Source: an uncultured Bacteroidales bacterium (GTDB lineage: Bacteria; Bacteroidota; Bacteroidia; Bacteroidales; Muribaculaceae). From it: a stretch of 35,083 nucleotides of DNA. Positions within the stretch are counted from its first letter, which is position 1; the number at the start of each line of letters is the position of its first letter. Shown in pieces: positions 1,929 through 24,120 of the stretch. A program made the position numbers and the translations under genes. The notes below the pieces were generated by a model. The model did not search any database. It was not told the DNA's origin and saw nothing but the letters and a program-made list of their open reading frames with translations. The DNA lies in the NCBI GenBank assembly GCA_947646295.1, contig CANSGE010000002.1, forward strand, positions 1 through 35,083. The letters run 5' to 3'.

Positions 1929-2725
1929 TTGGGCTGTTTACCGATATAGGCGAGGATGCCGCCATCCACGTAGAGCACGTGACCGTTTACGAAATTTGAA
2001 GCGTCGGAAGCGAGGAATACAGCGGGGCCCATGAGGTCTTCGGGCGTACCCCAACGTTCGGCTGGAGTCTTGGCGATGATAAACTGGTCGAAGGGGTGAC
2101 GCGAGCCGTCGGGCTGGATCTCGCGCAGGGGAGCTGTCTGTTCGGTGGCGATGTAGCCCGGGCCGATGCCGTTGCACTGGATATTGTTGGCACCGTATTC
2201 GGAGCAGATGTTGCGGGTGAGCATCTTGAGGCCACCCTTGGCGGCTGCGTAGGCGCTCACGGTCTCGCGGCCGAGCTCGCTCATCATCGAGCAGATGTTG
2301 ATGATCTTGCCGTGGCCCTTGCGGATCATGCCGGGGATCACAGCCTTGGCGCAGATAAATGGAACGATGAGATCGACGTCGACCACGCGGCGGAAATCTT
2401 CGACGTCCATGTTTTCCATGGGGATACGCTTGATGATACCGGCGTTATTGACGAGGATGTCGATGGTACCTACCGTCTTCTCGATATCAGCCACCATAGC
2501 GCGGACGGCTTCTTCATCGGTCACGTCGCAGAGGTAGCCCTTGGCGTCGATACCGAGTTCCTTATAGGCTGCGAGGCCACGGTCGACGGTTTCCTGACGC
2601 GAGCAGTTGAATACGATTTTAGCGCCGGCTTCAGCGAAAGCGCGGGCGATGGCGAGACCGATGCCGTAGGCGGCTCCGGTGACGAGGGCTACCTTGCCCT
2701 CGAGAGAAAAAGAATTGAGTATCAT
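1925..2725 (-). CDS. kduD: KduD-like short-chain dehydrogenase (2-dehydro-3-deoxy-D-gluconate 5-dehydrogenase family)
   Basis: 266 aa SDR; FSLEGKVALVTGAAYGIGLAIA (Rossmann TGxxxGIG), NNAG, YxxxK (YAAAK), DGG near C-terminus; context of GAG/uronate catabolism. Confidence 0.78.
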   Translation of the reverse strand: MILNSFSLEGKVALVTGAAYGIGLAIARAFAEAGAKIVFNCSRQETVDRGLAAYKELGIDAKGYLCDVTDEEAVRAMVADIEKTVGTIDILVNNAGIIKRIPMENMDVEDFRRVVDVDLIVPFICAKAVIPGMIRKGHGKIINICSMMSELGRETVSAYAAAKGGLKMLTRNICSEYGANNIQCNGIGPGYIATEQTAPLREIQPDGSRHPFDQFIIAKTPAERWGTPEDLMGPAVFLASDASNFVNGHVLYVDGGILAYIGKQPK

Positions 2726-2727
2726 GA

Positions 2728-4029
2728 TCAGGAGTTTTGAGAGTCGATTTTTTCAAAAAGTTTTACAGCGTCGATATATGCGAGCATACCTTGTGCCACC
2801 TGACGGGCATTCTGCATCGCATGTACGACTGTGGCAGGGCGGTTTGTGACGTCGCCGCCTGCGAAAACGCCCTTGCGTGTGGTCATGCCGAATGGTTCGT
2901 CGCGGTTGATCACGTAGCCTTTGTCGTCGACGTCGATACCGGTAGTGGTGCTGACGATGCGTGCGGCAGGGGCGCTGCCGACGGCCATGAGCACACGGTC
3001 GGCAGGTTCGTTGTGGGGCTCACCGGCAGTCAGGGTGTTGATGGCGGTGACTTTGCCGTCGGTGCCGATGATTTCGGTGAGGGATGTATCCCAGCGGAAT
3101 TTCACGCCTTCCTCCACGGCAGCGTCGTACTCTGAGCGTAGGGCTGCCATGCGGGAGATGTCGCGGTGGTAGAGGATGGTGACCTCGGCGGCTCCGCAGC
3201 GTATGCAAGTACGGGCGGCGTCGATGGCGGTGTTGCCGCAGCCTATCACGAATACACGGTGGCCGGGCATCACGGTGACTTCCTCGCGGCTGATGTATCC
3301 GGCGTTGAAGAGGCTCACGCGGCGGAGAAACCAGATGGCCTGGCGCACGCCTTCGAGCTGATTGCCGGGCACGTCGAGCATCTTGGGTTTGCCCGTGCCG
3401 GTGCCGATGAATATGGCGTCGAATCCCTGGGCGAAAAGGTCGTCGATGGTGAAATCGCGTCCGATGGTGACACCATTGTGGATGGTGACGCCGAGGCGTT
3501 CGATTTTGGAAATTTCGTTGCGTACGACTTCTTTAGGGAGGCGATATTCGGGGATGCCGTACATGAGCACGCCTCCGGCTTCGCGTTCCATCTCGAAAAT
3601 CTCCACGGCCACACCTTTGCGGGCGAGTTCTCCGGCTATGGTGAGTCCTGCGGGTCCGCTGCCTATCACAGCAGCGCGTCCGCGTGTCTTTTCCATGATA
3701 TTTTCATGGGTGAGATTCATAGCGGCATCGAAATCAGCCACAAATTCCTCGAGACGGCCGATGCTCACGGGGCGGTCTTTGCGGCCCATCACACAGCTGC
3801 CCTCGCACTGGCGCTCATGGGCGCAGACGCGTCCGCACACGGCGGGAAGATTGCTTTTGGCATTGATGATGGAGAGCGCGTTGCCGAAATTGCCCATCGC
3901 GAGCTCGTGAATCCAGTCGGGGATATCATTTTCGACCGGACAAGCCTTACGACACTGGGGCACTTTGCAGTTGAGGCAGCGTTTGGCCTCAGCGATTGCG
4001 CGGGCGGGAGTGAGATCGGAGTTATGCAT
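2728..4029 (-). CDS. GltD-like FAD/NAD(P)-dependent oxidoreductase (glutamate synthase small-subunit / NfnB-type fold)
   Basis: 433 aa; N-terminal Cys clusters CLNCKVPQCRKACP and CGRVCAHERQCEGSC; FAD motif GSGPAGL; NAD(P) motif GCGNTAIDAARTC; C-terminal FAGGDV. Confidence 0.85.
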   Translation of the reverse strand: MHNSDLTPARAIAEAKRCLNCKVPQCRKACPVENDIPDWIHELAMGNFGNALSIINAKSNLPAVCGRVCAHERQCEGSCVMGRKDRPVSIGRLEEFVADFDAAMNLTHENIMEKTRGRAAVIGSGPAGLTIAGELARKGVAVEIFEMEREAGGVLMYGIPEYRLPKEVVRNEISKIERLGVTIHNGVTIGRDFTIDDLFAQGFDAIFIGTGTGKPKMLDVPGNQLEGVRQAIWFLRRVSLFNAGYISREEVTVMPGHRVFVIGCGNTAIDAARTCIRCGAAEVTILYHRDISRMAALRSEYDAAVEEGVKFRWDTSLTEIIGTDGKVTAINTLTAGEPHNEPADRVLMAVGSAPAARIVSTTTGIDVDDKGYVINRDEPFGMTTRKGVFAGGDVTNRPATVVHAMQNARQVAQGMLAYIDAVKLFEKIDSQNS

Positions 4030-4045
4030 ATTGTTTCAGAGTTAG

Positions 4046-4081
4046 AAAAAGAGAGGCCGCCGCGTCGACGCAGGCGGCCTC
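4046..4081 (-). terminator. Intrinsic-terminator-like hairpin (minus strand) between the secreted-protein gene and the GltD-like gene
   Basis: Perfect 9-bp arms gaggccgcc (4053-4061) / ggcggcctc (4073-4081), extended by palindromic gcgtcgacgc in the loop; on the minus strand followed by TTTTT (aaaaa 4046-4050 on plus). Confidence 0.75.
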
Positions 4082-4144
4082 AGGTCTAATGATGGAAAAT
4101 CTTTTTTACCTTAAAATTGCTTGGAACTGAGTGTTTAGAAGCTA

Positions 4145-5620
4145 TCAAATAATAATCTTAGTTGCTTTTCCGTTGCTCACGCGTATCACGAGGCCCATGC
4201 CATCGGCGGGCTGGATGCGGATACCGTTGAGGTTGTAGTATACTGCGTCGGCGTCGTCATCGGCTTCGATACCATCGATACCGGTGAGATCCTGCTGTGT
4301 TGATTCGATCACGAAGGCATTGCCGCTTTCAGGCTCAGGCATCTCGGTAAATGTACCGTTGGCGCTGCTGCCTACTTTCACGCTCATCTTGGCTGTGTAG
4401 TTGCCGGCTTCGATATCGGGCACTTCAAACACACCTGTGAGATGATAGGGCGCTATGGGTGTCACCTCTGCGGGAGCTTCTTCAGTATCGCCGGTGTCTT
4501 CACCTTCTGTCTCGGCAACTGGAGCGGCCAGATCGCTGTAACGGATCACCTGAGTGTGCAGAGTTTCTTCACCATTTTCAGCTGTCAATGCCACCTGCAG
4601 TGTCACTGCTCCAGCGAGTATATCATAATTGAGTACGTGCAGATCGTAATGGAATCTTGCGGTATTATTTTCAACTTCGATATTGGTGAAATTCTGCTTG
4701 TTTGCCACCAGGAGGAGTTTTGTCTTATCATTGAATTTGAGATCCCAACGAGCTACTTCAGATTTATCTTTGCCTTTACCGCTTACTGAAGCAGTAATAG
4801 TAAGATTAGCATTGATGCTGAGATTTCCGGGAATAGTGAGCTGACCATTTTCGATATTGACAGATTGAGATTCACCATCTTTGTCCTTATACGTCATTTT
4901 TCCGCTAAGAGTACCATCCTCTTCCCATTCGAAACGTATCACCTGACCTTCCACGAGGAAGTCGCCGGATTCGACGTTGCAGGTAGGCATGTTCCACTTA
5001 GGTTCAACTTTGGGAGTGCAGGTGAATTCCATACCGATAGCGTGGATTCGGTAATTAGTTGCTGTGGCATCCTCGAATTTATTGGTATTAGCATTTACAA
5101 TCTTGTAAACTGTGCCTGCAGTCTGATAGGCGCCGTCAATTTCGAATACGATGTCATCGTTGGCAGAGGCTACCGTGATAGAACCTATTTTTGTATCGCC
5201 GGCATAGACGTCAAATACAGCGTTTTTTGTGCTTCCGCTTGATTTGATTGCAAACTTGCTGCAGTTATAGCCGGGAAGTGTAAATTGAAGATATGCTCCA
5301 TTGTATGCGAGGATCTGATAAACATTGTTAGTAGAATTGTAGGCAGCGTCATAGCCGACGTACTGGACAGCAGCACCATCTTGTACGCTCCACTGAGCTG
5401 ACAAGGTACACTCTCCGGTTAGATGTTTATTATCGTTATGCTTGCCATTGCTGATTTTGTCATTTTTTCCGGCTGCTACGAAATCGTCGGAGATGGTGAT
5501 GGTGCCATCAGCGTTTTCAGTGATTACTTCTGCGGGGGTGGCAGTTTCTTCAGTCGCGTCTTGAGCGAAAGCCGGGAAGACCGCTGCTACGCAAGCGAGT
5601 GAAAGTAAAAATTTTTTCAT
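4145..5620 (-). CDS. Secreted protein of unknown function with possible C-terminal sorting-like tail
   Basis: 491 aa; signal peptide MKKFLLSLACVAAVFPAFAQ; no recognised catalytic motif; C-terminus DAVYYNLNGIRIQPADGMGLVIRVSNGKATKIII. Confidence 0.75.
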   Translation of the reverse strand: MKKFLLSLACVAAVFPAFAQDATEETATPAEVITENADGTITISDDFVAAGKNDKISNGKHNDNKHLTGECTLSAQWSVQDGAAVQYVGYDAAYNSTNNVYQILAYNGAYLQFTLPGYNCSKFAIKSSGSTKNAVFDVYAGDTKIGSITVASANDDIVFEIDGAYQTAGTVYKIVNANTNKFEDATATNYRIHAIGMEFTCTPKVEPKWNMPTCNVESGDFLVEGQVIRFEWEEDGTLSGKMTYKDKDGESQSVNIENGQLTIPGNLSINANLTITASVSGKGKDKSEVARWDLKFNDKTKLLLVANKQNFTNIEVENNTARFHYDLHVLNYDILAGAVTLQVALTAENGEETLHTQVIRYSDLAAPVAETEGEDTGDTEEAPAEVTPIAPYHLTGVFEVPDIEAGNYTAKMSVKVGSSANGTFTEMPEPESGNAFVIESTQQDLTGIDGIEADDDADAVYYNLNGIRIQPADGMGLVIRVSNGKATKIII

Positions 5621-5662
5621 AGTTTTATTACGGTTAATTTTTTTTGTGCTATACGATCATTT

Positions 5663-6967
5663 TTACGAAATGAATTCTTCGACGGGAGCGAGGCCCTTCT
5701 TCACACGCGCGAGACGGTTGAGAGCTTCGAGGAAATAGTAGTCGGCATAGTTGAGCGGGGTATCGATCTCGGAGCCGTGGGGGAGTGAGCCTACAGAGTG
5801 CTTGAGCACGAAGCCGCAGTTGGTGCCCTGCTCGGCGAGATAGTCGGCTGAGGCGAGGCTGCGTAGGATCTGCTCGGCATAGTCGGTGTAGCGCTGTTCC
5901 TTGAGGATGTAGCCAAGCTCGATCATGCCTGAAGCGATCACGGCTGCTGCTGAAGCGTCGCGGGGGGTGTCGGCGCCGGCACGGGCATCGAGATCCCAAT
6001 AGGGTATTTTGTCGGCGGGGGTATTGCGTGCCATGATCATCTCGGCTACCGCTACGGCCTTGTCACGGAATTCGTCGACACCGGTCTCGCGGAAAGTCTC
6101 GGTGAAGCCGTAGAGAGCCCAGCCCTGACCGCGTGCCCAGGCGGAGTCGTCGTTTTTGCCCTGGAATGTACCTGCGCTCTCCACTGTGCCGTCAGCCTTG
6201 TAGCTCACCACGTGGTAGCAGGTGTGGTCGGGACGGAAGTGATGGGCGAGAGTGGTGCGGGCGTGCTTGATGGCCACGTCTTTGTATTTCGAATCGCCGG
6301 TGAGCTTTGTGGCATTGAAGAGGAGCTGGAGGTTCATCATATTGTCGATGATGACGGGATAGTTCCATTCGCCGAAGTCCCATGAGCGTATGCATCCGAT
6401 TTCGGGATTGAAACGCGCGATAAGATTGTCGGCTGTGCGCACCATCACCTCGCGGATGGAGTCGGCGGGAGCGAGACGCAGCGCATTGCCGTAGCTGCAG
6501 TTGATCATGAAGCCGAGGTCATGCGTGTCGGTCATGTACGATGCGGGGAGCATCTTATTGGTATAACGCACGGCGCGCTCGCGCAGAGTGGTGTCGCCGG
6601 TCATCTCGTAAGCGAGCCAGAGCGATCCGGGGAAGAATCCGGCCGTCCAGTCGGCGGCGTCGCAAAGACGCAGGGTGCGGTATTCGGCGAGCGAGGGATG
6701 CTCGAGGAGTTCTACTTTGAAATTGGAGTGTGCGGTCTGGAGCTGGTCTTCGAGCTGCTCGAGCGAATAGTCGGTCATGAGCGAGCGGGGGAAGAGACCA
6801 GTGGAGTCGACGTCGTCGGCCGTCTGACGGAGCTGCGCTACAGCAGTGGTCAGAGCATTGGCATACCAATCATCGGACTGCGCTTTCTCTGTACCCGCGC
6901 AACCGTAAGTGATTGCGACGAGGAGAGCGGCTCCTGACATGGCGAGTATAGATTTTGATACGTGCAT
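5663..6967 (-). CDS. GH88-family unsaturated glucuronyl hydrolase, lipoprotein
   Basis: 434 aa; lipobox-like ITYGC; DWTAGFFPGSLWLAYEMTGD, HDLGFMINCSYG, NYPVIIDNMMNLQLLFNATKLTGD, DDSAWARGQGWALYGFTETFRETG, PYWDLDA, DASAAAVIASGMIEL. Confidence 0.92.
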   Translation of the reverse strand: MHVSKSILAMSGAALLVAITYGCAGTEKAQSDDWYANALTTAVAQLRQTADDVDSTGLFPRSLMTDYSLEQLEDQLQTAHSNFKVELLEHPSLAEYRTLRLCDAADWTAGFFPGSLWLAYEMTGDTTLRERAVRYTNKMLPASYMTDTHDLGFMINCSYGNALRLAPADSIREVMVRTADNLIARFNPEIGCIRSWDFGEWNYPVIIDNMMNLQLLFNATKLTGDSKYKDVAIKHARTTLAHHFRPDHTCYHVVSYKADGTVESAGTFQGKNDDSAWARGQGWALYGFTETFRETGVDEFRDKAVAVAEMIMARNTPADKIPYWDLDARAGADTPRDASAAAVIASGMIELGYILKEQRYTDYAEQILRSLASADYLAEQGTNCGFVLKHSVGSLPHGSEIDTPLNYADYYFLEALNRLARVKKGLAPVEEFIS

Positions 6968-7007: not shown

Positions 7008-7015
7008 CAAAGTTA
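7008..7015 (-). promoter_or_regulatory. Bacteroidetes -7 box (TAACTTTG) upstream of the minus-strand GH88 gene
   Basis: Plus strand caaagtta = minus TAACTTTG, matching TAnnTTTG; about 40 nt upstream of the GH88 start at 6967. Confidence 0.6.
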
Positions 7016-7061: not shown

Positions 7062-7098
7062 AGAAATTGTGCAAAAGTGATTAAAATGTGTGCAAAGA
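7062..7098 (-). promoter_or_regulatory. Candidate HTCS operator: two half-sites at 21-bp spacing upstream of GH88
   Basis: Minus strand CTTTTGCACAATTTCT (7077..7062) and TCTTTGCACACATTTT (7098..7083), offset exactly 21 bp; proximal half-site is 46 nt from the -7 box. Confidence 0.5.
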
Positions 7099-7493: not shown

Positions 7494-7533
7494 AATTGAA
7501 AATTGAAAACTGAAAATTGAAAATTAAAAATTA
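7494..7533. repeat. AT-rich short tandem repeat (aattgaaaattgaaaactgaaaattgaaaattaaaaatta)
   Basis: Roughly 10-nt repeating GAAAATT/GAAAACT units abutting the stop codon of the HTCS gene. Confidence 0.7.
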
Positions 7534-10500
7534 CACTTTGGTGTAGTCGGATGGCTGGTTACCGAAGAATTTCTTGAAGCTCGTAGAGAAGTAGGATGGA
7601 GTGCCATAGCCTACCATGGCGCTCACTTCGGCCACGGTGTAGCGGCCGGATTTGAGCAGCTCCAGAGCACGGTTCATGCGGATACGACGGATAAATTCGT
7701 TGGCCGATTCGCCGGTGAGAGCTTTGAGCTTGAGGTGCAGGTTGCTGCGGCTCATGAGCATCTCGCGGGCAAAAGCGTCGGTTGTAAACTCGGAATCGTC
7801 GAGATGCGCCTCGACGGTCTTGAGCGCTCCGGCGAGAAATTCTTCGTCGAGCGGATTCATCGACATCTTGGCCGGCTCAAGGTCGGGCGTATCCGTATAG
7901 TAGCGGATAGCGCTGGCACGGGTGCGGAAGCGGTTGGCTATCTTGGCGCGCAGCAGCGACATAGAGAATGGCTTGGGCAGATAGTCGTCGGCACCAACTT
8001 TCATGGCGTCGAGCTGATCGCGCACATCGGATTTGGCCGAGAGCATCATCACGGGGATGTGTGAGGTGCGGATATTGCGCTTGATGGCGCGGCACAGCTG
8101 GAGACCATCGGTGCGCGGCATCATTACGTCGGTGATGATCATGTCGGGAGCTTCATCATCGAGCATCTTGAGGGCTTCCTCGCCGTCGCGGGCCATGATG
8201 ATGCGGTAATCGGCCGCAAGAGCCTCGCGCATGTATTTGAGTATGGTGTCGTTGTCGTCGACGAGCATGATTGTACGCCGGTCGCCGCCTTCGGCCGACT
8301 CGGGGGCTGTCTCGTCAGCAGTGGCGGTATCCGACTCGGGGATGTACTGCACGGCGGTGGCTGCCGGAACGGCATCGCCATCAGCCGCACGCTCTCCCGG
8401 GGCGTAGGCGTCGATGGATACCGGGAGGGTGATGGTGAATGCCGTGCCCTGATCCGGGGCGCTCTCCACGGAGATAGTGCCGTGATGTAGTGTGACGAGG
8501 CGCTGTACAAGCGACAGGCCGATACCGCTGCCGTAGCTGTTTTCGTCGACCTTGTAGAAGCGGTCGAAGATATGCGGCAGCTTGGCCGGATCGATACCGT
8601 AACCGGTATCGCTTACCTTGATAATGAGCGATTTGCCATCGTCGGAAAGCGACGATGAGAGCTTCACGGAGCGACCGTCGGGGGTATGCTTGAAGGCATT
8701 GGAGAGGAGATTGCCGAGGATTATCGACATGTATGTGGGGTCAAGCGGGAGCTTCCCGTCGCCTACGGTCGAATCGATGCGGCAGTCGATGTTGCTGTGC
8801 TGCGCCTTGGAGCGGTAATTGGCCAGCTCGCAGGCGAGCATTTCGTTGACGTCCACCGGGCGCACGCGCAGGCGGAACATGCCGTTCTCAGCACGCTGAT
8901 AGTCAAGTATCTGATTGATGATATTGAGGATACGCATCGTATTGTTGCGTATGGTCTGGAGCTTGTCGAGCACCTTGGGCTCGGAGCGTTTCTGCTCGAT
9001 AAGCTCCGTGACCGGGAGCAGGATGAGTGTGAGCGGCGTGCGGAGCTCATGCGACATATTGACGAAGAAGTTGACTTTCATGTCGTTGAGTTCCTGGCGG
9101 CGTTCGTAGTCGCGCTTTTCAAAGTCGCGTTTCTGCTCGCGGAGGCGACGGAGGGTGAAACGCCGGAGCAACATCCACACAGCGAATGCTATGATGAGGA
9201 TACCGATGAGCTGCGCCCACCATTGCTGATACCAATAGGGCATGACGCGTACCTCGATGGAACTAACCGGACTCCATACGCCGTCGCTGTTGGCCGACTG
9301 CACATCGAAGCGGTATGTGCCGGGGCTGAGGTCGCGGTAGGTGGCGGAGTGCTCGGCGCCTACCTCTATCCAAGTATTGTCGACGCCTTCGAGGCGGTAA
9401 CGGAAGTGTTCGCTGCCGTCGGTATGATAGTTGAATGCAGTAAAATCAAAGGTTATCATCGACTGGCCGGGCTGAAGTACGACCTTTGTGCCGGTTTCGA
9501 GGGTATTGCGCAGGATGTGGGTATCGTCGCCGGGCGCTACCGGCACTCCGAACAGGCGGATGCCATTGATGAGCGGCGCCGCCGATATGGTGTCGGACAT
9601 GATGTCGCCGGGACGGAAGGTGACAATGCCCCCCACCCCGCCGAAATATAGGCGCGAGCCATCGCCTACGGATGCAATAGCCTTGGCATTAAACTGGCGG
9701 ACGCCGAGGAAATCGGACGCTCCGTAATTATGGAAAGTGCTGTCGGCTGGATTGTATTGCGACAGTCCGAGGCTTGTGCTGATCCAGAGGCGGCCGCTGT
9801 CGTCGGCTATGGCGCCGAGTACGACATTGTTGGGGAGACCCTCAGCCACAGTGAAGTGGCGCACATGCTTGAGAGAAGCGTCGGCCACGTACAGCCCCTG
9901 ACGGGTGGAGATGTAGAAATCGCCGGTGAGAGGATATTCGTAAATGTTGTTGACATATATACGCGCGAGTGCCGAAATATCTTTGGGGAGGTCGAGCGGC
10001 CGCACCGTCGCACCATCCTCGGCACAGATTGCAAATCCGGATTCGCCTGAGAGCCAGAGGCGTCCGTGCGAGTCGCGGTATATCTCGGTGATATTCTCGA
10101 GCGGAGCTGCCACGGGCTCGGCTGTATTGGATGCGGGGGAGTAGAGATATAGTCCGTCGAGCGTGCCGAGCCATAGGTGCCCGTCCTGAGCAGGCAGAAT
10201 CGCATAGAGCTTGGCCGGCCCGGGAAGCTCACGAAGCAGTCGGCGCGACTGGAGATCGAACACTGACAGGCCGCCGAGATGCGCTCCCACGTACAGTCGC
10301 CGGGCCTCACGGTCGACGTATACGGCCTTGACATCGGCGGAACGGAGGCCATCGGAACGTGTGATGTAAGAGAATGTCTCGTCGGCTGTATTGTATATGT
10401 TGAGGCCGCCTGCATTGGTGCCTATATAAATGTAATCGTCTGAGGGGACGATACATGAAACGACGTTGTCGTTGAGCGGAGGCATGCCTATGTTGCGGAA

Positions 10501-11508
10501 ACGGTTGCGCAACGGATGGTAATAGTTGATACCGCCGTACCACGTACCGATCCACATGCCGCCACTGCGGTCGGCGAAGATACTGCGCACGGAAGCATGT
10601 GAGAGGGGCGCGGCTCCGGCCGCACGCGGAGAGGCTGTGGCCGTGAACGTGCGCAGATCGCCCGTAGCGGGATTGTACACCGACAGGCCGTCGACGGTAC
10701 CTACCCAGAGACGATAGCCATGGTCAATCTCGAGCGAACGCACAAAGGGCGAACAGATACGGATGCCATCCGCCCCATCGAAACGCTCTGTGCGTCCTGT
10801 AGCCGTGGAGTGGCGCCATACACCGGCACCCTCGGTAGCTATCCAAAGGGTATCATCATCGGTGAGAAAGGCATTGACCGGGGCTGCGAATCCGGCCAGG
10901 GCTACCGGATGCTGATCGCCCGGCTTAATAGCATACGCGCCCGCTGGCGTACCTATATAATATGTGTCGCCTATCACGGCGAGAGCATTCACACTGCAGT
11001 CCTTGACCAATGTGGTGAAGTTACGCGAGGGAATATCGAAAATGTATACTCCACGGCCAGAGCCTACAAGCAGGCGGGTGGAGTCGATTGGCTCAACGGC
11101 ATTGAATTCAGAATTGTCGCCGGCAGGCAGAGAATTCGGCTCAAATGTATCGAGGAGACGATCGTAACGTGTGAGACTGCTGTGGGAGAGAATCCACAGA
11201 TTGCCGGCGCGGTCGGTGACCACCCGCTTGATGACATTGTCGGGGAGTGTGCCGGCGCGTCCTCCGGCCGAACGATACACCTTGAAAGTATGGCCGTCGT
11301 ATCGGTCGAGACCATCATGTGTGGCGATCCAGATATATCCGAGAGAGTCCTGGGTGATGGAGGGGACCGTGGTGTGCGAAAGTCCTTCATCGATGCCTAT
11401 GTGCCGGAATGACACCCATGGCTCAGCCGCATTCATCGCCGCGGAGAAGCAGGACAGCACCACTGCAAAGAGTACAAATATGATAGAGGATTTAAGTCTC
11501 ATGGTCAT
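7531..11508 (-). CDS. Hybrid two-component system (HTCS) sensor kinase / response regulator
   Basis: 1325 aa; periplasmic beta-propeller repeats (GNLWILS, LWIATEGAG, GGMWIGTWYGGI, GRLWISTSLGL), Y_Y_Y-type domain, HisKA (FFVNMSHELRTPLTLI), HATPase (GNLLSNAFKHTPDG, DTGYGID, GSGIGLSLV), receiver (IMLVDDNDTILKYM, DMIITDVMMPRTDG), C-terminal AraC HTH (SRSNLHLKLKALTGES..YGTPSYFSTSFKKFFGNQPSDY). Confidence 0.97.
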   Translation of the reverse strand: MTMRLKSSIIFVLFAVVLSCFSAAMNAAEPWVSFRHIGIDEGLSHTTVPSITQDSLGYIWIATHDGLDRYDGHTFKVYRSAGGRAGTLPDNVIKRVVTDRAGNLWILSHSSLTRYDRLLDTFEPNSLPAGDNSEFNAVEPIDSTRLLVGSGRGVYIFDIPSRNFTTLVKDCSVNALAVIGDTYYIGTPAGAYAIKPGDQHPVALAGFAAPVNAFLTDDDTLWIATEGAGVWRHSTATGRTERFDGADGIRICSPFVRSLEIDHGYRLWVGTVDGLSVYNPATGDLRTFTATASPRAAGAAPLSHASVRSIFADRSGGMWIGTWYGGINYYHPLRNRFRNIGMPPLNDNVVSCIVPSDDYIYIGTNAGGLNIYNTADETFSYITRSDGLRSADVKAVYVDREARRLYVGAHLGGLSVFDLQSRRLLRELPGPAKLYAILPAQDGHLWLGTLDGLYLYSPASNTAEPVAAPLENITEIYRDSHGRLWLSGESGFAICAEDGATVRPLDLPKDISALARIYVNNIYEYPLTGDFYISTRQGLYVADASLKHVRHFTVAEGLPNNVVLGAIADDSGRLWISTSLGLSQYNPADSTFHNYGASDFLGVRQFNAKAIASVGDGSRLYFGGVGGIVTFRPGDIMSDTISAAPLINGIRLFGVPVAPGDDTHILRNTLETGTKVVLQPGQSMITFDFTAFNYHTDGSEHFRYRLEGVDNTWIEVGAEHSATYRDLSPGTYRFDVQSANSDGVWSPVSSIEVRVMPYWYQQWWAQLIGILIIAFAVWMLLRRFTLRRLREQKRDFEKRDYERRQELNDMKVNFFVNMSHELRTPLTLILLPVTELIEQKRSEPKVLDKLQTIRNNTMRILNIINQILDYQRAENGMFRLRVRPVDVNEMLACELANYRSKAQHSNIDCRIDSTVGDGKLPLDPTYMSIILGNLLSNAFKHTPDGRSVKLSSSLSDDGKSLIIKVSDTGYGIDPAKLPHIFDRFYKVDENSYGSGIGLSLVQRLVTLHHGTISVESAPDQGTAFTITLPVSIDAYAPGERAADGDAVPAATAVQYIPESDTATADETAPESAEGGDRRTIMLVDDNDTILKYMREALAADYRIIMARDGEEALKMLDDEAPDMIITDVMMPRTDGLQLCRAIKRNIRTSHIPVMMLSAKSDVRDQLDAMKVGADDYLPKPFSMSLLRAKIANRFRTRASAIRYYTDTPDLEPAKMSMNPLDEEFLAGALKTVEAHLDDSEFTTDAFAREMLMSRSNLHLKLKALTGESANEFIRRIRMNRALELLKSGRYTVAEVSAMVGYGTPSYFSTSFKKFFGNQPSDYTKV

Positions 11509-11529: not shown

Positions 11530-11537
11530 CAAAGATA
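11530..11537 (-). promoter_or_regulatory. -7 box (TATCTTTG) for the HTCS gene
   Basis: Plus caaagata = minus TATCTTTG, matching TAnnTTTG, just upstream of the HTCS start. Confidence 0.45.
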
Positions 11538-11582: not shown

Positions 11583-11619
11583 TTTTTGGACAATTTTACC
11601 GTTTTATTACACAATATTA
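11583..11619 (+). promoter_or_regulatory. Candidate HTCS operator in the divergent HTCS/lyase intergenic region
   Basis: TTTTTGGACAATTTTA (11583-11598) and TTATTACACAATATTA (11604-11619), offset 21 bp, 12/16 identical; a weaker third half-site TTTCTTCGCTAATTCA may start at 11626. Confidence 0.5.
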
Positions 11620-11685
11620 TAAGAATTTCTTCGCTAATTCAATGATAATAAAACATGTGAAGACCGGAAGTCAGAGATTGGTACT

Positions 11686-11719
11686 TAACTTTGCAAACAC
11701 AATTTTAGAGATAACTTTG
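11686..11719 (+). promoter_or_regulatory. Two -7 boxes (TAACTTTG) in tandem upstream of the first lyase gene
   Basis: TAACTTTG at 11686-11693 and 11712-11719; the TTTG of the first is 18 nt from the second, resembling a -33 TTTG / -7 TAnnTTTG pair. Confidence 0.55.
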
Positions 11720-11733: not shown

Positions 11734-14331
11734 ATGAATAGCCTTAAACTAATTACACTTGCCAGTGTATGTGTGAGTACTTGCCCGAACATCGTATCGG
11801 CGCAGGCCAATCTGCATATTGATGCCGTGAGCATGATGCACGAATCCCGCGAGACAGTACAACCCGCCTCGGGCAGCAGCACGGGTGACCGCTTTGTGTC
11901 GCTGCAATGGCCGCTCCCTGAAGAATTCCGCCAGATAGGCGCCCCGATGGACGGCTTCGAGAAAGAGCATCCCGCGCCCGACAAGACCAAGCTGAGATAT
12001 AAGGTACGGTTCGGCACCAATCCGGATCTTGCCGCGCCGTCCACCACGCGCGTGACTCTCTGGCCATTCTACAACGCTCACGAAATCACCGAGCCGGGCA
12101 CCTGGTATTGGCAATATGCATATACCGATGCGACAGGCCGCGACGAATGGAGCGAGGTATATTCATTCACCGTGGAGAAATCAGACAATCGCTACGCGCC
12201 GCCCTCGTTCGGCGAATTTATCTCGAAACTGCCCGCAAGCCACCCGCGCATCCTCACCGATGAAGCCCACCGCGACGCACTCATCGCCAATTCGCAGGGC
12301 AAAGCCGAGCGTCAATGGTACATCGAAGGGGCTGACAAGGTGCTCACCGTGCCGATGAAGACGCTCGACAACATCCCCACCGAGCATCTTGCCAATCTGT
12401 CAAACCAGATGCAGGTCAATTCATTCCTCACCCGCGAAAGCCGCAAGGTGATCGACGGCGAAGAGCGCAACATCGAGCTGCTCACCCGCGCATACGTGCT
12501 CACCGGCGAACGTAAATACGCCGACGAGGCACTCGCCCGCGTGCTGACCATGACACAATGGAACAACAATCCGCACGTGAAAGGCGACTTCAACGACGCC
12601 ACGCTGCTCTCAGTAAGCACGCTCGCCTATGATACTTTCCACGCCATGCTCACCGACGCCCAGAAAAAGACGCTGCTCAATACAATCAGCGACAAGCTGG
12701 GACATATGTACGCACATTACAACAATTACCTTGAGAATCATATCGCCGAAAACCATATCTGGCAGATGACTCTGCGCATCGCCACCTATGCGGCCCTTGC
12801 CACCTACGGCGAACTGCCCGAAAGCACTCTCTACGCCGACTATCTATATAATGTGTGGATAGCCCGCTTCCCCGGCCTCAACTCCGACGGTGCATGGCAC
12901 AACGGCGACTCGTATTATACCGTAAATACCCGCACACTCGTGGAACTGCCCTATATCATGGGACGCATCTCGGGTTTCAATTATTTCAGCGACCCGTGGT
13001 ACAACCGCAATGTGCTCTACGCCATCTATCAGCAGCCTCCCTTCTCAAAATCGGGCGGCAACGGCTCATCCCACCTCAAAGTGAAACGTCCGCTGCCGGT
13101 GCGTGTGGGTCAACTCGACGCTCTCGCCCGCATCTTGGACGATACTTATGCGGCCGATTACGTGCGCATCACCCAGGCTCAGGAACCTGAGATACTGAAG
13201 CGCACCCTCGGCGCCAAAGCCGGCGACCTGACATGGACTCGCCTGCAACTTGCCGCAGAACTGCCCCAAGGCGCCGGCCTTGCTGACCTGCCTGCCGGAC
13301 ATGTGTTCCCGCAGTCGGGCCTGGCTTCTTTCAACACCTCTCTGGGCGATACGCGCCACAATGCGATGTGGACATTCCGCAGCAGTCCCTACGGCTCGAC
13401 ATCCCACGCTCTGGCCAATCAGAACGCATTCAATACATTCTATGGCGGCGACCCGCTCTTCTACAGCAGCGGCCACCACATCGAATTCACCGACCTGCAC
13501 TCTATGACGAGCCACCGCGCCACCCGTGCCCACAATACCATATTGGTGGACGGTATGGGCCAGTGCATCGGTACGGAGGGATACGGTTGGATTCCACGCT
13601 CGTACACAGGCGAGGAAATAGGCTATGTGCTGGGCGATGCCTCAAATGCTTACGGAAAAGTGATATCTCCGCTGTGGATCGACCGCGGACGTCTCTCCGA
13701 CGTGGATTACACACCCGAAAACGGCTGGGATGAGAATCATCTCGTGAAATATCGCCGCCATATGGTGAATCTCGGCACGAGCGGGCTGCTGCTCATCTAT
13801 GACGAGCTGGAAGCTGACCGCCCCGTGGAATGGAGCTATCTGCTTCATACCGTGGAGCGACCCATGCAACTTGGCCGGGACGGCAGCCGCCTCCATGTGA
13901 CCGCGACAAACAGCACCGGCGCATCCGATGCGTGGCTCATAGGCTCGGGAAAGCTCTCCACTGACACCACCTCGCAATTCTTCAAACCGGCTGTCAACTG
14001 GCTCGTGCGCGAAGCCGACGGCACTTTCAAGCCGCTCCCCAACCACTGGCACTTCAAAGCCCGCAGCGAGAAGAGCCGCGGATACCGCTTCGCCACACTG
14101 ATCGACACCCATGACAAAGGTACGGCCGCACGTATCCCTGTGGACTCCGACGGCGCAGTGCGCTTCGGGGAGTGGACCGTGAGCGTGACCCTCGACCCTG
14201 AGGCAGCCCCGGCTTTCACCGCATCGCACCCCTCCGGCGCACGCATCGAATATCACGGCGAGGAAACACGTATCATCGACGGCGGCAAGGAATCGGTGCT
14301 CGTCGACGAGATACCCGAGCTGGAAATATAG
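11734..14331 (+). CDS. Heparinase II/III-like (DUF4962-type) polysaccharide lyase, secreted
   Basis: 865 aa; signal peptide ending ..VSAQAN; toroid region NNYLENHIAENHIWQMTLRI, GAWHNGDSYYTVNTRTLVELPY; C-terminal SSPYGSTSHALANQNAFNTFYGG..TRAHNTILVDGMGQ. Confidence 0.85.
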   Translation: MNSLKLITLASVCVSTCPNIVSAQANLHIDAVSMMHESRETVQPASGSSTGDRFVSLQWPLPEEFRQIGAPMDGFEKEHPAPDKTKLRYKVRFGTNPDLAAPSTTRVTLWPFYNAHEITEPGTWYWQYAYTDATGRDEWSEVYSFTVEKSDNRYAPPSFGEFISKLPASHPRILTDEAHRDALIANSQGKAERQWYIEGADKVLTVPMKTLDNIPTEHLANLSNQMQVNSFLTRESRKVIDGEERNIELLTRAYVLTGERKYADEALARVLTMTQWNNNPHVKGDFNDATLLSVSTLAYDTFHAMLTDAQKKTLLNTISDKLGHMYAHYNNYLENHIAENHIWQMTLRIATYAALATYGELPESTLYADYLYNVWIARFPGLNSDGAWHNGDSYYTVNTRTLVELPYIMGRISGFNYFSDPWYNRNVLYAIYQQPPFSKSGGNGSSHLKVKRPLPVRVGQLDALARILDDTYAADYVRITQAQEPEILKRTLGAKAGDLTWTRLQLAAELPQGAGLADLPAGHVFPQSGLASFNTSLGDTRHNAMWTFRSSPYGSTSHALANQNAFNTFYGGDPLFYSSGHHIEFTDLHSMTSHRATRAHNTILVDGMGQCIGTEGYGWIPRSYTGEEIGYVLGDASNAYGKVISPLWIDRGRLSDVDYTPENGWDENHLVKYRRHMVNLGTSGLLLIYDELEADRPVEWSYLLHTVERPMQLGRDGSRLHVTATNSTGASDAWLIGSGKLSTDTTSQFFKPAVNWLVREADGTFKPLPNHWHFKARSEKSRGYRFATLIDTHDKGTAARIPVDSDGAVRFGEWTVSVTLDPEAAPAFTASHPSGARIEYHGEETRIIDGGKESVLVDEIPELEI

Positions 14332-14363
14332 TAGAAATAAAATTTACACAAATAAACCATACC

Positions 14364-17300
14364 ATGAAGACAATAGTCTCGATAATTCTTTTTATTATAT
14401 GTATGCTTGCCCCGCCACAGGCGGCCTGCTTCAAGGTCTCGGGTGTCGTGAAAGACAACGAAGGCCTTGAAGTAATCGGCGGCAGCGTGACCATCAAGGG
14501 GGCGACGCAATCAGGCGTCATCACCGATATTGACGGTAAATATACCATCGAGGTGCCCTCGGCACAGAAATCCGTGCTCGTCTTCTCATCTGTGGGCATG
14601 ATGCCTGTGGAGGTGAAAGTCGATGGCAAATCGACAATCGATGTGACTCTTCAACCCAACAATCAGGTGCTGAATGAAGTGGTAGTGGTGGGCTACGGCA
14701 CCACACGCCGCAGCGACCTTACCGGCTCAGTGGTCTCCGTCAAGGCCAAAGACCTTGAGACAACACCCACCTCCGACCCTCTGCAGGCACTCGCGGGTAA
14801 AGCCGCAGGCGTGCAGATCACGCAGGACGACGGCGAACCCGGCGCCTCGATATCAGTGCGCGTGCGTGGCGGTATCTCTATCACTCAGAGCAACGAACCG
14901 CTCTACATCATCGACGGCTTCCCCTCCGAAGACGGTCTGGCAGGTATATCTCCCTCGGAAATCGAGACCATCGACGTACTGAAGGATGCCTCGGCCACAG
15001 CCATCTACGGTGCCCGCGGCGCCAACGGCGTCGTAGTGGTCACCACCAAGAAGGGCGCCGACTCTGATGCGACTCTTCAGGTGACTTTCGATGCTTACGC
15101 AGGCTTCCGCAAGGTATCGCGCAAGCTCGATGTACTCGACGTGCAGGAATTCCTCCTGCTCGACTACGAGCGCTCGCTGGCATTCAACGGCCAGAGCGGC
15201 GTGCTCGGATTCCAGAACCGCTACGGCTCATTCGCCGAGATCGCCACCAACTACGCCAACCGTCCCGGCATCGACTGGCAGAAGGAAGCCCTCGGGCGCA
15301 CCGCCTCCACCCAAAACTATCACGTAGGTATCACCGGCGGCGGCAAAGACCTGAAATACAATTTCAACTACAATTACAGCAAAGACCAGGGCGCTATGAT
15401 ATTGAGCGGTACCGACAAGCATACGGTATCATTGGGCGTACAGCAGAACAACCGCAAATGGCTCTCCCTCAACGTCAAGGCCACCTATACCGAACAGCGT
15501 ACATGGGGTATGGGCACATCTGACCAGAGCACCCGCTTCAACAAGATGGAGCACATACTGCAATATCGCCCCACCGCCGGCATCTACGGCGATGACAACA
15601 GCCTGCTCACCGGCAACGATATGCTCGAAGATGACGATCAGAACCCCATGCAGAGCCCTATCATCTCGGCTAACGAGGAAGAACGCGAACGCGTGACCCG
15701 CAATATCCTCATCAATGGCGGCGTGACCATCACGTTCAACAAGTATTTCACGTTCCGCAACAGCACCGGCTACCGCTACCAGATGGACCGCCGCGACGAG
15801 TTCTATGGCGAAAAATCCGTGATAGGCAAGCGCTCGAGCATCCAGAGCATCACGCAATACAGCGAAAGCTCCCAATTCCAGACCTCCAACGTGCTCACCT
15901 ACAACAACCGCCACAAATATCACAAACTGATAGTGATGCTCGGTCAGGAATGGGTGGACAACCGCGCCCGCTGGATGCGTGCCCTCGTGAAGAATTACCC
16001 CAACAACGATATCGGCTCCGCCGACGCTTCTCTGGGCACACCGGAGTCGGTGACATCAAATGTCAACTATGACAATAAGATACTCTCATTCTTCGGCCGC
16101 GTGAATTACAGCATCGGCGACAAATACCTCTTTACAGCTACAATGCGTGCCGACGGCTCGTCGAAATTCAGCAAACGCAACAAATGGGGCTACTTCCCCT
16201 CTGTATCGGCTGCCTGGCGCATCGGTCAGGAGGAAATCATAGAGCGCCTGGGCGTGTTCAGCGACCTGAAACTTCGCGCTGGTTACGGTCTGGCCGGCAA
16301 CAACCGCGTGGGCAGCTACCGTTCGCTCGATATTCTCACCTCAGCCGGATATCCCTCGGGCGACAACTGGCTCCCCGGCTACGCACCCTATGCCATCCCC
16401 GACGAAAACCTCAAATGGGAATCCAACGCGACTCTCAACGTAGGCCTCGATATGGGCTTCTTCAACCAGCGCCTTACCATCGCTCCGGAATTCTTCTACA
16501 ACCGCTCGTCGAACCTGCTGCTGAACTCCCGCGTGCCTACTTCATCGGGCTTCAAGAATATGCTCCGCAATGTGGGCCGCACCTCCAACCGCGGTCTTGA
16601 CCTGGCGATCAGCTCCACCAATATCGTGACTCGCGACTTCCAGTGGACCACCAACCTCAACTTCTCGGTGTACCGCAACCGCATCGAACAGCTCTCGGGC
16701 GAAGATTACTTCCTCGAAGAAGCCGCATTCGGCTACAACGACAAGACTCATATCATCGCCGTGGGCGGCCCCGTGGGTCAATTCTACGGATACCGCACGG
16801 TGGGTCTTTATCAGGTGGAAGACTTCAACTATGACCCTGCCACCAAGACCTACACTCTCAAAGATGACCAGCCGGTACCTCAATACAATACCGGCGTGCA
16901 GCCCGGTTACTGGAAATTCGAGGATACGGACGGCAACGGCGTGATCGACGAAAATGACAAGACTGTCATCGGCAATGCCAACCCGACCTTCTTCGGCGGC
17001 TTCACCAACACGTTCAACTGGCGTAATTTCGACGCATCCGTATTCTTCACGTTCAGCGTCGGAGGCAAGGTGCTCAATGCCACGAAGCTCACCAATTCAC
17101 AGGCCGGCAAGACCAACTACAACGTACTTGCCGTGATGGACAGCTCCAACCGCTGGATGACCATCGACGCCGCCGGCAACACCGTGACCGACCCCGCGAC
17201 TCTCGCAGCAATGAACGCCGGCAAGACCACCGCATCCATCTACGATACCGAGCAGGGTGACACATACATCCACTCATGGGCTGTGGAAGACGCCTCATAT

Positions 17301-17534
17301 CTGCGACTCAGCAATCTCACGGTAGGCTATACCATCCCCCGTAACATCCTGCGCAAAATCGCGATTGAAAAACTCCGCTTCTATTTCACGGCATCCAATC
17401 TCTTCGTGGTCACCGGCTACTCAGGCTTCGATCCCGAAGTATCGACCAAAGGCAATAATCTCACTCCCGGCGTTGACTTCGGTGCATATCCCCGCAACCG
17501 CTCATACGTATTCGGCTTAAATCTCTCATTCTGA
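14364..17534 (+). CDS. susC: SusC-like TonB-dependent outer membrane transporter
   Basis: 1056 aa; signal peptide; carboxypeptidase-regulatory-like domain (VSGVVKDNEGLEVIGGSVTIKG); LNEVVVVGYGTTRRSDLTGSV; plug RVRGG..YIIDGF..IETIDVLKDASATAIYGARGANGVVVVTTKKG; C-terminal aromatic LNLSF. Confidence 0.97.
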   Translation: MKTIVSIILFIICMLAPPQAACFKVSGVVKDNEGLEVIGGSVTIKGATQSGVITDIDGKYTIEVPSAQKSVLVFSSVGMMPVEVKVDGKSTIDVTLQPNNQVLNEVVVVGYGTTRRSDLTGSVVSVKAKDLETTPTSDPLQALAGKAAGVQITQDDGEPGASISVRVRGGISITQSNEPLYIIDGFPSEDGLAGISPSEIETIDVLKDASATAIYGARGANGVVVVTTKKGADSDATLQVTFDAYAGFRKVSRKLDVLDVQEFLLLDYERSLAFNGQSGVLGFQNRYGSFAEIATNYANRPGIDWQKEALGRTASTQNYHVGITGGGKDLKYNFNYNYSKDQGAMILSGTDKHTVSLGVQQNNRKWLSLNVKATYTEQRTWGMGTSDQSTRFNKMEHILQYRPTAGIYGDDNSLLTGNDMLEDDDQNPMQSPIISANEEERERVTRNILINGGVTITFNKYFTFRNSTGYRYQMDRRDEFYGEKSVIGKRSSIQSITQYSESSQFQTSNVLTYNNRHKYHKLIVMLGQEWVDNRARWMRALVKNYPNNDIGSADASLGTPESVTSNVNYDNKILSFFGRVNYSIGDKYLFTATMRADGSSKFSKRNKWGYFPSVSAAWRIGQEEIIERLGVFSDLKLRAGYGLAGNNRVGSYRSLDILTSAGYPSGDNWLPGYAPYAIPDENLKWESNATLNVGLDMGFFNQRLTIAPEFFYNRSSNLLLNSRVPTSSGFKNMLRNVGRTSNRGLDLAISSTNIVTRDFQWTTNLNFSVYRNRIEQLSGEDYFLEEAAFGYNDKTHIIAVGGPVGQFYGYRTVGLYQVEDFNYDPATKTYTLKDDQPVPQYNTGVQPGYWKFEDTDGNGVIDENDKTVIGNANPTFFGGFTNTFNWRNFDASVFFTFSVGGKVLNATKLTNSQAGKTNYNVLAVMDSSNRWMTIDAAGNTVTDPATLAAMNAGKTTASIYDTEQGDTYIHSWAVEDASYLRLSNLTVGYTIPRNILRKIAIEKLRFYFTASNLFVVTGYSGFDPEVSTKGNNLTPGVDFGAYPRNRSYVFGLNLSF

Positions 17535-17535
17535 C

Positions 17536-19200
17536 ATGGAAATCAATAAATATCTCAGTCTCATCCCGATGATGGCAGCCGCGCTGCTCTCGGGCGGATG
17601 CACCGACATAATCACTGAAGACCCCGATTCGTATTACGAACGTGACGAGTTCTTCACCACTCCCCAGAAAGCCGAAATGGCTGTCCTGGGCATATACAAC
17701 GGCCTGCCCGCCATCTATGGTGAAAAAGACGGCATGTCGCTGCCCTGCTCGGATGATATCTATTACGTGAACGGCACTACCGCCGATAATGGGCGCCGCG
17801 ACGTGGGCCACTACGTAGTGCGCACCAACAATACCTGGGTGAGCGGCGTCTGGGACGGTAAATACAATATCATCAACCGCGCCAATTACACCATCTCCGG
17901 TATTGAAAGCATGCCGGGCTGGCAGAGCGACCCTACGCTGCTGCGTCTGATTGCCGAGGCACGCTTCCTTCGCGCACAGTCGGCTCTCGATCTGGTGCGC
18001 TACTGGGGTGATGTACCCTTCAAGACAAAGCGCACCTCCGGATACGAGGAGGCTTACGGCCCCCGCGTACCGCGTGAGCAAATCTACGATCAAATCATTG
18101 AAGACCTCAATTTTGCCAAAGAAAACCTGCCTTGGGCCGACGAAGTAGGCACGCCCGAGCGCGCTAGCCAGGGCGCGGCACGCGGTATGTTGATGCGCGC
18201 GTTGCTCTCCCGCGCCGGATACAGCCTGCAGGCCGATGGCAAGCTGAGCCGCCCCGATGGCAAGACCCGCAACGAATGTTTCCGCGGTGTGGTGGACGAG
18301 TGGCTCGCTTTCGAGGCCAAAGGCTACCACACGTTCTACCCCGAGGGTTTCGAGGCTCTTTTCAAATCATTCTCACAGGAAATCCTCAATACCACCGAAA
18401 GTATTTTCGAAGTTGCATTCCTCGCAGGTAAAAACAACGGCTACTGGGGCACATATATGGGCCCCGCCGTAGCCGCTCCGCAGATTTCGTCGACCGAATC
18501 GAGCAAATACATGGGCCGTGCCAATGCCGTTTTCCGTGCCGTGCCCGAATGGCGCGCCTTCTATGAGGAAAAAGATGAACGCCGCGACGTGAGCATCTGC
18601 ACTCACAGCTTTACCTGGGATGAAACTATCAACAACCACAAGCTTACAGAACAGAAAAGTCCACGTAACTGGTATCCCGGCAAGTGGCGCCGCGAATGGA
18701 TGCCTCTTGGATACATCGACCCGAACAAGACCGACGTGAATTTCTGCTTGCTCCGATATGCCGACGTCGTACTGATGGCTGCCGAGGCTTATGGCGAAAT
18801 CGGCAATACCACCGAGGCCTGGCGACTCATCAATCTCGTGCGAGAGCGTGCCGGCGCCACTCAGGTCAATTCTGGCAACTACGCATCGATATACAAAGCT
18901 CCCAAAGTGTACAACCTGCCCTACATCGCCGATGGCGACGAAGCCGGTCGCATCCGCACCGCTATTTATTGGGAGCGTGGCTTCGAACTGGCCTTCGAGG
19001 GCATACGTAAGTTTGACCTCCTGCGCTGGGGTGTGCTCGGCGATGCCCTCAAGCTCTTCGGCGAAAATGTCGACAGCCGTATAATAAGCTACGTGGCCGG
19101 ACAAAACTTTGTCAAAGGCAAGCACGAGCTTCTGCCAATACCTCAGGACGAAATGCAAGTGAATCCCTATCTCGAAAACACCAATAACCCCGGATACTGA
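17536..19200 (+). CDS. susD: SusD-like outer membrane lipoprotein
   Basis: 554 aa; lipobox LLSGGC; EARFLRAQSALDLVRYWGDVPF; ADVVLMAAEAYGEIG; WERGFELAFEGIRKFDLLRWG; PIPQDEMQVNPYLENTNNPGY. Confidence 0.96.
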   Translation: MEINKYLSLIPMMAAALLSGGCTDIITEDPDSYYERDEFFTTPQKAEMAVLGIYNGLPAIYGEKDGMSLPCSDDIYYVNGTTADNGRRDVGHYVVRTNNTWVSGVWDGKYNIINRANYTISGIESMPGWQSDPTLLRLIAEARFLRAQSALDLVRYWGDVPFKTKRTSGYEEAYGPRVPREQIYDQIIEDLNFAKENLPWADEVGTPERASQGAARGMLMRALLSRAGYSLQADGKLSRPDGKTRNECFRGVVDEWLAFEAKGYHTFYPEGFEALFKSFSQEILNTTESIFEVAFLAGKNNGYWGTYMGPAVAAPQISSTESSKYMGRANAVFRAVPEWRAFYEEKDERRDVSICTHSFTWDETINNHKLTEQKSPRNWYPGKWRREWMPLGYIDPNKTDVNFCLLRYADVVLMAAEAYGEIGNTTEAWRLINLVRERAGATQVNSGNYASIYKAPKVYNLPYIADGDEAGRIRTAIYWERGFELAFEGIRKFDLLRWGVLGDALKLFGENVDSRIISYVAGQNFVKGKHELLPIPQDEMQVNPYLENTNNPGY

Positions 19201-20567
19201 TGAATAAAAACTTATTAACAGCCGCCTTAGGCGTGGCCGCCTCGGCTGCCACAGCAGTTAGCGCCGCCAACCAGCGCCCCAACATCATCTATATAATGAC
19301 CGACCAGCAGGCCGCCCAGGCTGTTGGTTATGCCAACGATGAGGTCAATACACCCAACATCGACCGTCTCGCTGCCCGCGGTGTGCGCTTCAACAACGCA
19401 TATTGCTCATTCCCACTCAGCGGACCGTCGCGCTCGGCGATGTTCACCGGCTACAACCCCGGTGCCGTGGGCCTGCGCATCAACGGCACTCCGCTCAACG
19501 ATACTCTCCGCGAAAACACTCTCGGACAGATCATGACCGATGGCGGCTACGAATCAGTATACGCCGGAAAATGGCACGTGCACACCAATCCTCTCCCCGC
19601 CAAGCATGCGTTCGGCTTCGAGCGTCTGCATGGCTTCGGCGACGAAGGCCTGGCTGAGAGCGTGGTGGAATATCTGCAACGCGACCACGAAAAGCCGTTC
19701 TTCCTGGTAGCATCGTTCAACAATCCTCACAACATCTGCCAATACGCACGATACCAGAATCTGCCCGACGGCGAAATCGAGGAGGTGCCCCTCGACTCCT
19801 GCCCCAACCTCCCCGCCAACTTTGCTGTGGCTCCCTACGATGCTGATGTCCTGCTCTCCGAAAAGAGCATGAGCTACCGCCTCTACCCAACTGAAAACTT
19901 CACACCCGATGACTGGCGCCGCTACCGCGGAGCATATTATAAGATGATAGAGAAAGTGGATGGCCAGATAGGTATGATCATAGATGAGATCGACCGACAG
20001 AATCTCTGGGAAAACACCGTCGTCATCTTCACCTCCGACCACGGCGACGGCATGGGCGCTCATCAGTGGAATCAGAAATCAGCACTCTATGAAGAGTGTG
20101 CCAACATACCTTTCGTGGTATGTGCGCCCGGCGGACGCAATGCAGGCACAGAGCTGCCTCAGCTCATCAACAACGGTATCGACCTCATGCCATCTATCTG
20201 CGACTGGGCCGGCATCGACGTACCCGGCGACCGCAGAGGTAAAAGTTTCCGCAAGATTGTGGAGCAGGCTCGCCCAGACGCACCGCATCAGGATTATGTG
20301 GTGACCGAGGCTCTCTTCGATCAGGGAGGCAGCACCCAGGGATGGATGGTGCGCACACCCGACTTCAAATATGTGCTCTACGATACCGGCAAAAACCGCG
20401 AGCAGCTCTACGACATGCGCAACGACCGCGGCGAGATGCGCAACCTCGCCGTAGAGGCTCGTTACCGCGACGAATTACAGCGACACCGCGACCTGCTACG
20501 CAAATGGATGACCGAAAACCCGCTCGACGGTAAAAACGCCCCTGTAAGCGTGATACCGCTGAAGTAA
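19200..20567 (+). CDS. Secreted S1-type sulfatase, serine-type active-site signature
   Basis: 455 aa; RPNIIYIMTDQQ; formylglycine-precursor motif S-G-P-S-R (19419-19433); VIFTSDHGDGMGAHQW. TGATG overlap with the susD stop. Confidence 0.93.
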   Translation: MNKNLLTAALGVAASAATAVSAANQRPNIIYIMTDQQAAQAVGYANDEVNTPNIDRLAARGVRFNNAYCSFPLSGPSRSAMFTGYNPGAVGLRINGTPLNDTLRENTLGQIMTDGGYESVYAGKWHVHTNPLPAKHAFGFERLHGFGDEGLAESVVEYLQRDHEKPFFLVASFNNPHNICQYARYQNLPDGEIEEVPLDSCPNLPANFAVAPYDADVLLSEKSMSYRLYPTENFTPDDWRRYRGAYYKMIEKVDGQIGMIIDEIDRQNLWENTVVIFTSDHGDGMGAHQWNQKSALYEECANIPFVVCAPGGRNAGTELPQLINNGIDLMPSICDWAGIDVPGDRRGKSFRKIVEQARPDAPHQDYVVTEALFDQGGSTQGWMVRTPDFKYVLYDTGKNREQLYDMRNDRGEMRNLAVEARYRDELQRHRDLLRKWMTENPLDGKNAPVSVIPLK

Positions 20568-20574: not shown

Positions 20575-20611
20575 TTTTTGGACATTTATAAAGTTTTTTT
20601 CATCAAAAATT
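20575..20611 (+). promoter_or_regulatory. Candidate HTCS operator upstream of the second lyase transcription unit
   Basis: TTTTTGGACATTTATA (20575-20590) shares its first 10 nt with 11583-11592; second, weaker half-site TTTTTCATCAAAAATT (20596-20611) at 21-bp offset; 45 nt from the -7 box. Confidence 0.45.
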
Positions 20612-20656: not shown

Positions 20657-20664
20657 TAACTTTG
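20657..20664 (+). promoter_or_regulatory. -7 box (TAACTTTG) for the second right-arm transcription unit
   Basis: TAACTTTG matches TAnnTTTG, 28 nt before the ATG at 20693. Confidence 0.6.
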
Positions 20665-20692
20665 CATCATCGACTTGAAGAACCTTAACCCC

Positions 20693-23308: not shown

Positions 23309-23344
23309 ACCCTAAGCCAGTAAAAAATCATATCACATAAAACA

Positions 23345-24109: not shown

Positions 24110-24120
24110 TGCCATAAGCC

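Follow-up and report, generated by a model that had tools for sequence, protein, structure and literature searches.

Paired half-sites spaced by 21 bp as probable operators of an adjacent HTCS in a polysaccharide utilisation locus of an uncultured Bacteroidales bacterium

At araI1-I2 of Escherichia coli, tandem direct half-sites 21 bp apart are read by paired AraC-type HTH domains, with I2 abutting the -35 element. For Bacteroides, Ravcheev et al. (2013, PMC3878776) give all 16 predicted HTCS motifs as direct repeats with a mean of 21 bp from centre to centre; HTCS_Man has 16-bp sites and a 5-bp spacer, and the proposal is that an HTCS dimer binds a single helix face at positions two turns apart. 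BT3334 is listed there as HTCS_Hya (chondroitin sulfate/hyaluronan). The operators described below share this architecture (two direct half-sites, 21 bp, 16-bp sites, 5-bp spacer) and are thus of a type already published for Bacteroides, found here in another lineage; they belong to a different family, and their motif was derived de novo, the comparison with the published type covering the architecture. SusR-type Bacteroides operators are likewise direct repeats in front of susC-type operons, but their sites are spaced by 67 or 77 bp, and the SusR DNA-binding domain is unrelated to that of the HTCS considered here. The accepted picture of HTCS operators is left unchanged; what is added is a sensor tied to predicted operators in an uncultured gut lineage, in which the literature searched yielded no HTCS operator.

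The locus, its regulator and three paired sites

The stretch analysed (the window, 35 kb) corresponds to contig C2 of a Bacteroidales genome assembled from a metagenome (2.2 Mb) and carries a polysaccharide utilisation locus (PUL) around an HTCS gene (7531..11508, minus strand). From ORFs and Pfam matches, three enzyme operons are predicted. The left operon (774..6967, minus strand), assigned to operator 3 and taken as a single unit from gaps of 42 and at most 115 nt, comprises GH88, orf491, FAD oxidoreductase, SDR and DUF4861 genes. Right operon 1 (11734..20567, plus strand), assigned to operator 1, encodes a DUF4962/Hepar_II_III lyase, SusC, SusD and a sulfatase, whilst right operon 2 (20675..33746, plus strand), assigned to operator 2, encodes a second lyase, DUF3575, DUF6562, orf531, a third lyase, a PL8-type lyase and a sulfatase. 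The names of these enzyme families hint at a substrate of the chondroitin/hyaluronan kind, a sulfated glycan with uronic acid; none of the lyases in the window reached NCBIfam equivalog cut-offs. In general enzyme type (lyases, GH88, sulfatases, SusC/D) the PUL resembles that of HTCS_Hya, and in a comparison with BT3334 by PUL content alone the GH88, the PL8-type and DUF4962 lyases and the sulfatases fit. The DUF3575, DUF6562 and orf531 genes within the second lyase operon (23345-26782) form a trio that several relatives, and a paralogous locus of the same genome, likewise carry downstream of a lyase gene.

Each apparent transcription unit of the window, the HTCS gene excepted, is preceded by a putative operator. 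Operator 1 (11583..11619, plus strand) lies in the divergent region and faces the first lyase-susC-susD-sulfatase operon; its half-sites, TTTTTGGACAATTTTA (11583-11598) and TTATTACACAATATTA (11604-11619), are identical at 12 of 16 positions. Operator 2 (20575..20611, plus strand) stands before the second lyase operon, with half-sites TTTTTGGACATTTATA (20575-20590) and TTTTTCATCAAAAATT (20596-20611) that agree at 9 of 16 positions, the proximal partner being a weak half-site. Operator 3 (7062..7098, minus strand), before GH88, consists of TCTTTGCACACATTTT (7098..7083) and CTTTTGCACAATTTCT (7077..7062). The half-sites are offset by exactly 21 bp in all three cases and have a consensus of approximately TTTnnACAAa-tTnaAA. 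A preliminary description had listed these six half-sites and their 21-bp offsets at the three promoters, and its sequences, coordinates and spacings are exact.

The adjacent HTCS combines, in a single chain and in order, a periplasmic beta-propeller/Y_Y_Y sensor (Reg_prop/Y_Y_Y), HisKA, HATPase, a receiver and an AraC-type HTH (assigned by Pfam and alignment). Its DNA-binding domain is an AraC-type HTH_18, as the preliminary description had supposed for the protein that binds the repeats, and has relatives in the PDB in 12aw (an HTCS) and 2k9s, the structure of the AraC DNA-binding domain. Unlike AraC, the HTCS is membrane-bound and controlled by phosphorylation, and in the operators described here 45-66 nt separate the end of the proximal half-site from the -7 box, so that it stays far upstream of any -33 element. 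The receiver carries the SHIP motif (RTSHIPVMMLSAK); the S/CHIP motif characterises receivers that silence the DNA-binding domain until phosphorylated (PMC11253607).

Judging from sequence comparison, it is very probable that the paired half-sites are operators of the adjacent HTCS, phased with respect to the promoter, and that they serve to activate the three enzyme operons. The periplasmic sensor would detect a glycan fragment, and the phosphorylated HTCS dimer would place two domains side by side on the same helix face, two turns (21 bp) apart, each half-site being read by one AraC-type DNA-binding domain; the three enzyme operons would then be activated. We observe directly the motif and its spacing, how it is conserved, that it is confined to genomes with this HTCS clade and that it stands at phased distances from TAnnTTTG, and from this we infer binding of the motif by the HTCS; the need for phosphorylation, the activation itself and a glycosaminoglycan-derived oligosaccharide as ligand are predicted likewise.

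Operator 1 might in addition repress or activate the HTCS gene itself. The HTCS start codon is 74 bp away from it, and a candidate -7 box of that gene on the other strand (TATCTTTG, 11530..11537, minus strand) is 45 nt away, but the operator points away from the gene, no operator in the correct orientation was found upstream of this candidate box, and the presumed counterpart in B. thetaiotaomicron, BT3334, was not induced on hyaluronan (PMC12877422). We therefore regard such autoregulation as unlikely.

Conservation and specificity of the pair

A scan of the named genomes returned a single close ortholog, the same contig as genome G070, in which the whole locus is present and the HTCS is 71% identical to that of the window. 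G070 has one pair per promoter at exactly 21 bp (ATTTTAGACAAATTTG/ATGTTGCACAATATTA, GTTTTACACATTTATA/TTTTTAATCAAATCTG and GATGTAGACGCTTTTT/CTTTTGCACAATTTCA). Operator 1 is conserved there at this spacing, operator 2 corresponds to GTTTTACACATTTATA-N5-TTTTTAATCAAATCTG, and for operator 3 CTTTTGCACAATTTC is kept with a partner 21 bp off, the distal partner at the GH88 promoter being weak. Between the 3' end of the HTCS gene and the GH88 operator the window also holds a 79-nt direct repeat in three copies, 105-107 bp apart (7162-7452), and the G070 ortholog is without this entire stretch.

A first matrix, made from only the twelve half-sites of the window and G070, was applied at a pair threshold of >17 to the intergenic regions of seven further same-family loci, none of which had contributed to it. 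In these loci the HTCS is 39-46% identical to that of the window over its full length and gene order differs. Twelve pairs were found at 21 bp, whereas the 26 other spacings (16 to 42) averaged 0.69 and never exceeded 3, and matrices with permuted columns gave a mean of 0.10 pairs and at most 2, so that 0 of 300 trials reached 12. The pairs stand before homologs of the GH88, lyase, sulfatase and SDR genes of the window. Orthologous loci thus retain the paired motif at exactly 21 bp, which is what the operator reading of the preliminary description had called for. In keeping with the type of HTCS operator of Ravcheev et al., enrichment in relatives occurs solely at 21 bp, operators lie upstream of all three enzyme operons of the HTCS-encoding PUL, and they are conserved before orthologous genes where an orthologous regulator is present and absent otherwise.

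Across eight loci from other families (HTCS 35-40% identical) the first matrix showed no enrichment; where such loci have a GH88 neighbour, their HTCS is merely 35-36% identical. The motif thus belongs to the clade of the window's family, and in those other loci it has drifted or the link between HTCS and operator fails. In one genus (four loci: L206, L205, L167 and L168) a conserved intergenic stretch, TAGACAATTTTAATCTTTTTCGAAATAAAATTG (TAGACAATnTTnATnTTTTT...ATAAAATTnATATT), directly follows the HTCS stop codon and may represent this operator after drift. Among the loci that share the motif, the DNA-binding domain is 67-95% identical and the sensor 33-65%; for the seven distant loci compared with the window the values are 67-78% and 33-40%. 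The predicted reading head is thus retained while the sensor has diverged. The preliminary description had linked the repeats to this HTCS by inference only, and that link gains support from the conservation of the pair, its confinement to the clade and the conserved DNA-binding domain.

With a matrix built from relatives without any window sequence, exactly three pairs scored >12 in the 35-kb window, namely operators 1, 2 and 3 (33.0, 25.1 and 30.0), and one pair, located within an ORF, scored >18 in 378 kb of the same genome. The strongest background pair (24.4, contig C15) was discarded as it lies inside an ORF. Single half-sites were too unspecific to be of use (76 matches with up to 3 mismatches in the genome, 46 in a reversed control), so that only the pair is informative. 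A loose pair pattern gave 17 matches in the genome and 23 in the control; of the former, the window contig has 4 and that of the paralog 2. Rarity elsewhere in the genome, on which the operator reading depended, is therefore borne out for the paired motif.

Moreover, a 43-position profile (model R1) was made from 18 operators. Its sites were picked by the first-matrix scans, and the scores of operators 1, 2 and 3 (25.6, 26.8 and 30.6 bits) are thus not independent; since training sites score high by construction, the informative results are the spacing test, the absences and two matches outside the training set. Over 49 genomes of the genus, matches >20 bits were confined to the six that carry the HTCS clade, the best score in the remaining 43 being 19.7 bits. 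One untrained match (G029:C194), with a -7 box at 55 nt, directly precedes homologs of the FAD oxidoreductase (69%) and SDR (84%) of the window, and the other (G012) lies 57 nt from a -7 box, before a sulfatase homolog. The 43-bp model finds further members of the predicted regulon.

A second HTCS locus of the same genome (G000 contig C87, L162, 122-9881) encodes an HTCS 45% identical to that of the window (67% in the DNA-binding domain), together with a DUF4962 lyase, DUF3575, DUF6562 and an orf531 homolog. Its lyase gene has a related pair, again with a 21-bp offset and showing CAACA cores, ATTTTCAACA.../AAATTCAACA... (ATTTTCAACACACCCG-N5-AAATTCAACATATTTG), and the two HTCSs may therefore cross-talk. 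This pair lends something to the idea that the sites belong to another regulator encoded elsewhere (Crp-like, SusR-like or a second HTCS) that merely co-occurs with the PUL, as does the fact that co-occurrence is no proof of which protein binds. We nevertheless hold this to be highly improbable, because the HTCS is the regulator that always adjoins the sites and because direct repeats two turns apart match the HTCS motifs of Ravcheev et al. (PMC3878776), and not Crp palindromes or SusR repeats of 67-77 bp. It is scarcely credible, too, that the repeats are AT-rich UP-like elements, or a feature of Bacteroidales promoters in general, in phase with the helix for contact with RNA polymerase and tied to no specific regulator. 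The sites are indeed AT-rich, upstream of -7 boxes and in phase with them, but the motif has an invariant core (TT, AC/CA), its confinement to genomes with the HTCS clade contradicts a general feature, and the 558 kb surrounding 40 unrelated same-family HTCS genes, which have the same promoter type, contain no pair >18.

Distance from the pair to the -7 box

The three predicted promoters of the window have a TAACTTTG -7 box, at 11686..11693 (plus strand, first lyase), 20657..20664 (plus strand, second lyase) and 7008..7015 (minus strand, GH88). The proximal half-sites of operators 1, 2 and 3 lie 66, 45 and 46 nt from these boxes, the distances given in the preliminary description, and the 45 nt of operator 2 recur in G070. 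In 19 promoters with a pair, the proximal half-site was found 45, 45, 46, 55, 55, 57 (several) or 66 (ten) nt from TAnnTTTG; one of the 19 boxes is TAACTTCG, so that the 66-nt class holds 9 promoters, or 10 when this box is included. The G012 sulfatase site (57 nt) is left out of this list and agrees with it. The classes (45-46, 55-57 and 66 nt) are separated by steps of one helical turn.

Circular statistics on the 19 promoters gave a Rayleigh R of 0.92 at 10.5 bp, a value reached by 0 of 20000 uniform sets; for the eight gene groups into which the promoters were collapsed, it was reached by 9 of 50000 random sets. TAnnTTTG occurs in 17% of 130-nt intergenic pieces, and in 1% at one of the six distances in these classes. 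The evidence for the phase rule is strong, although the three classes were read off the data and orthologous promoters are not fully independent. The distances of 45-46, 55-57 and 66 nt place the operators 4 to 6 turns of the helix ahead of the -7 box, and at each of them a bound dimer would be turned towards one and the same side of RNA polymerase.

At the divergent promoter, the preliminary description had noted the 66 nt correctly, but had read it as a gap, one period longer than the other two distances, that a weak third half-site might fill. As 66 nt is the commonest class in relatives, the puzzle is settled without such a site. Least probable of all, then, is a divergent promoter with three half-sites and an HTCS oligomer reaching to within 45 nt, since, for all that 66 equals 45 + 21 and that a few relatives are weakly motif-like one period downstream (scores 0 to 1), the supposed third site of the window scores -17.7, like background (mean -16.7), and the 66-nt class occurs in its 9 or 10 promoters without one.

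In the window the GH88 operator stands 46 nt from its -7 box, but in G070 the distance is 66 nt, which shows that operators can shift by two turns. We lean, if only slightly, towards a discrete helical-phase grammar for HTCS operators (45, 56 or 66 nt), in which their position can change by a turn or two from one orthologous promoter to another. If true, this would point to a flexible polymerase contact made from one helix face, and would make promoters of uncultured Bacteroidales readable from sequence alone; the positional rule could also help to match HTCSs to promoters in related genomes. At the 40 unrelated loci with an HTCS from this family, self-similarity at 21 bp was seen in 27 of 92 promoters, against 3.6 +- 1.8 in shuffles. 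The 21-bp spacing is therefore general at unrelated HTCS loci, which extends the published rule, and since the frame of each motif there is unfixed, their -7 distances are not comparable. The part of PMC3878776 consulted makes no mention of a phased distance to the -7 box, and no description of one for HTCSs was found in the literature searched, whose scope took in few subscription journals; the phase rule may thus be new.

Lastly, two further elements were observed at the divergent promoter. A second TAACTTTG box (11712-11719), at 92-93 nt from operator 1, follows 26 nt past the first and is found in the same place in G070; of the two, the box at 11686 is the predicted start of the first lyase operon. 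The sequence CGCTAATTCAATGATAATAA (11633-11652), which lies between operator 1 and the -7 box, is identical in the window and G070. This element was seen in none of the more distant relatives; it is better conserved than operator 1 itself and is possibly the site of another regulator.
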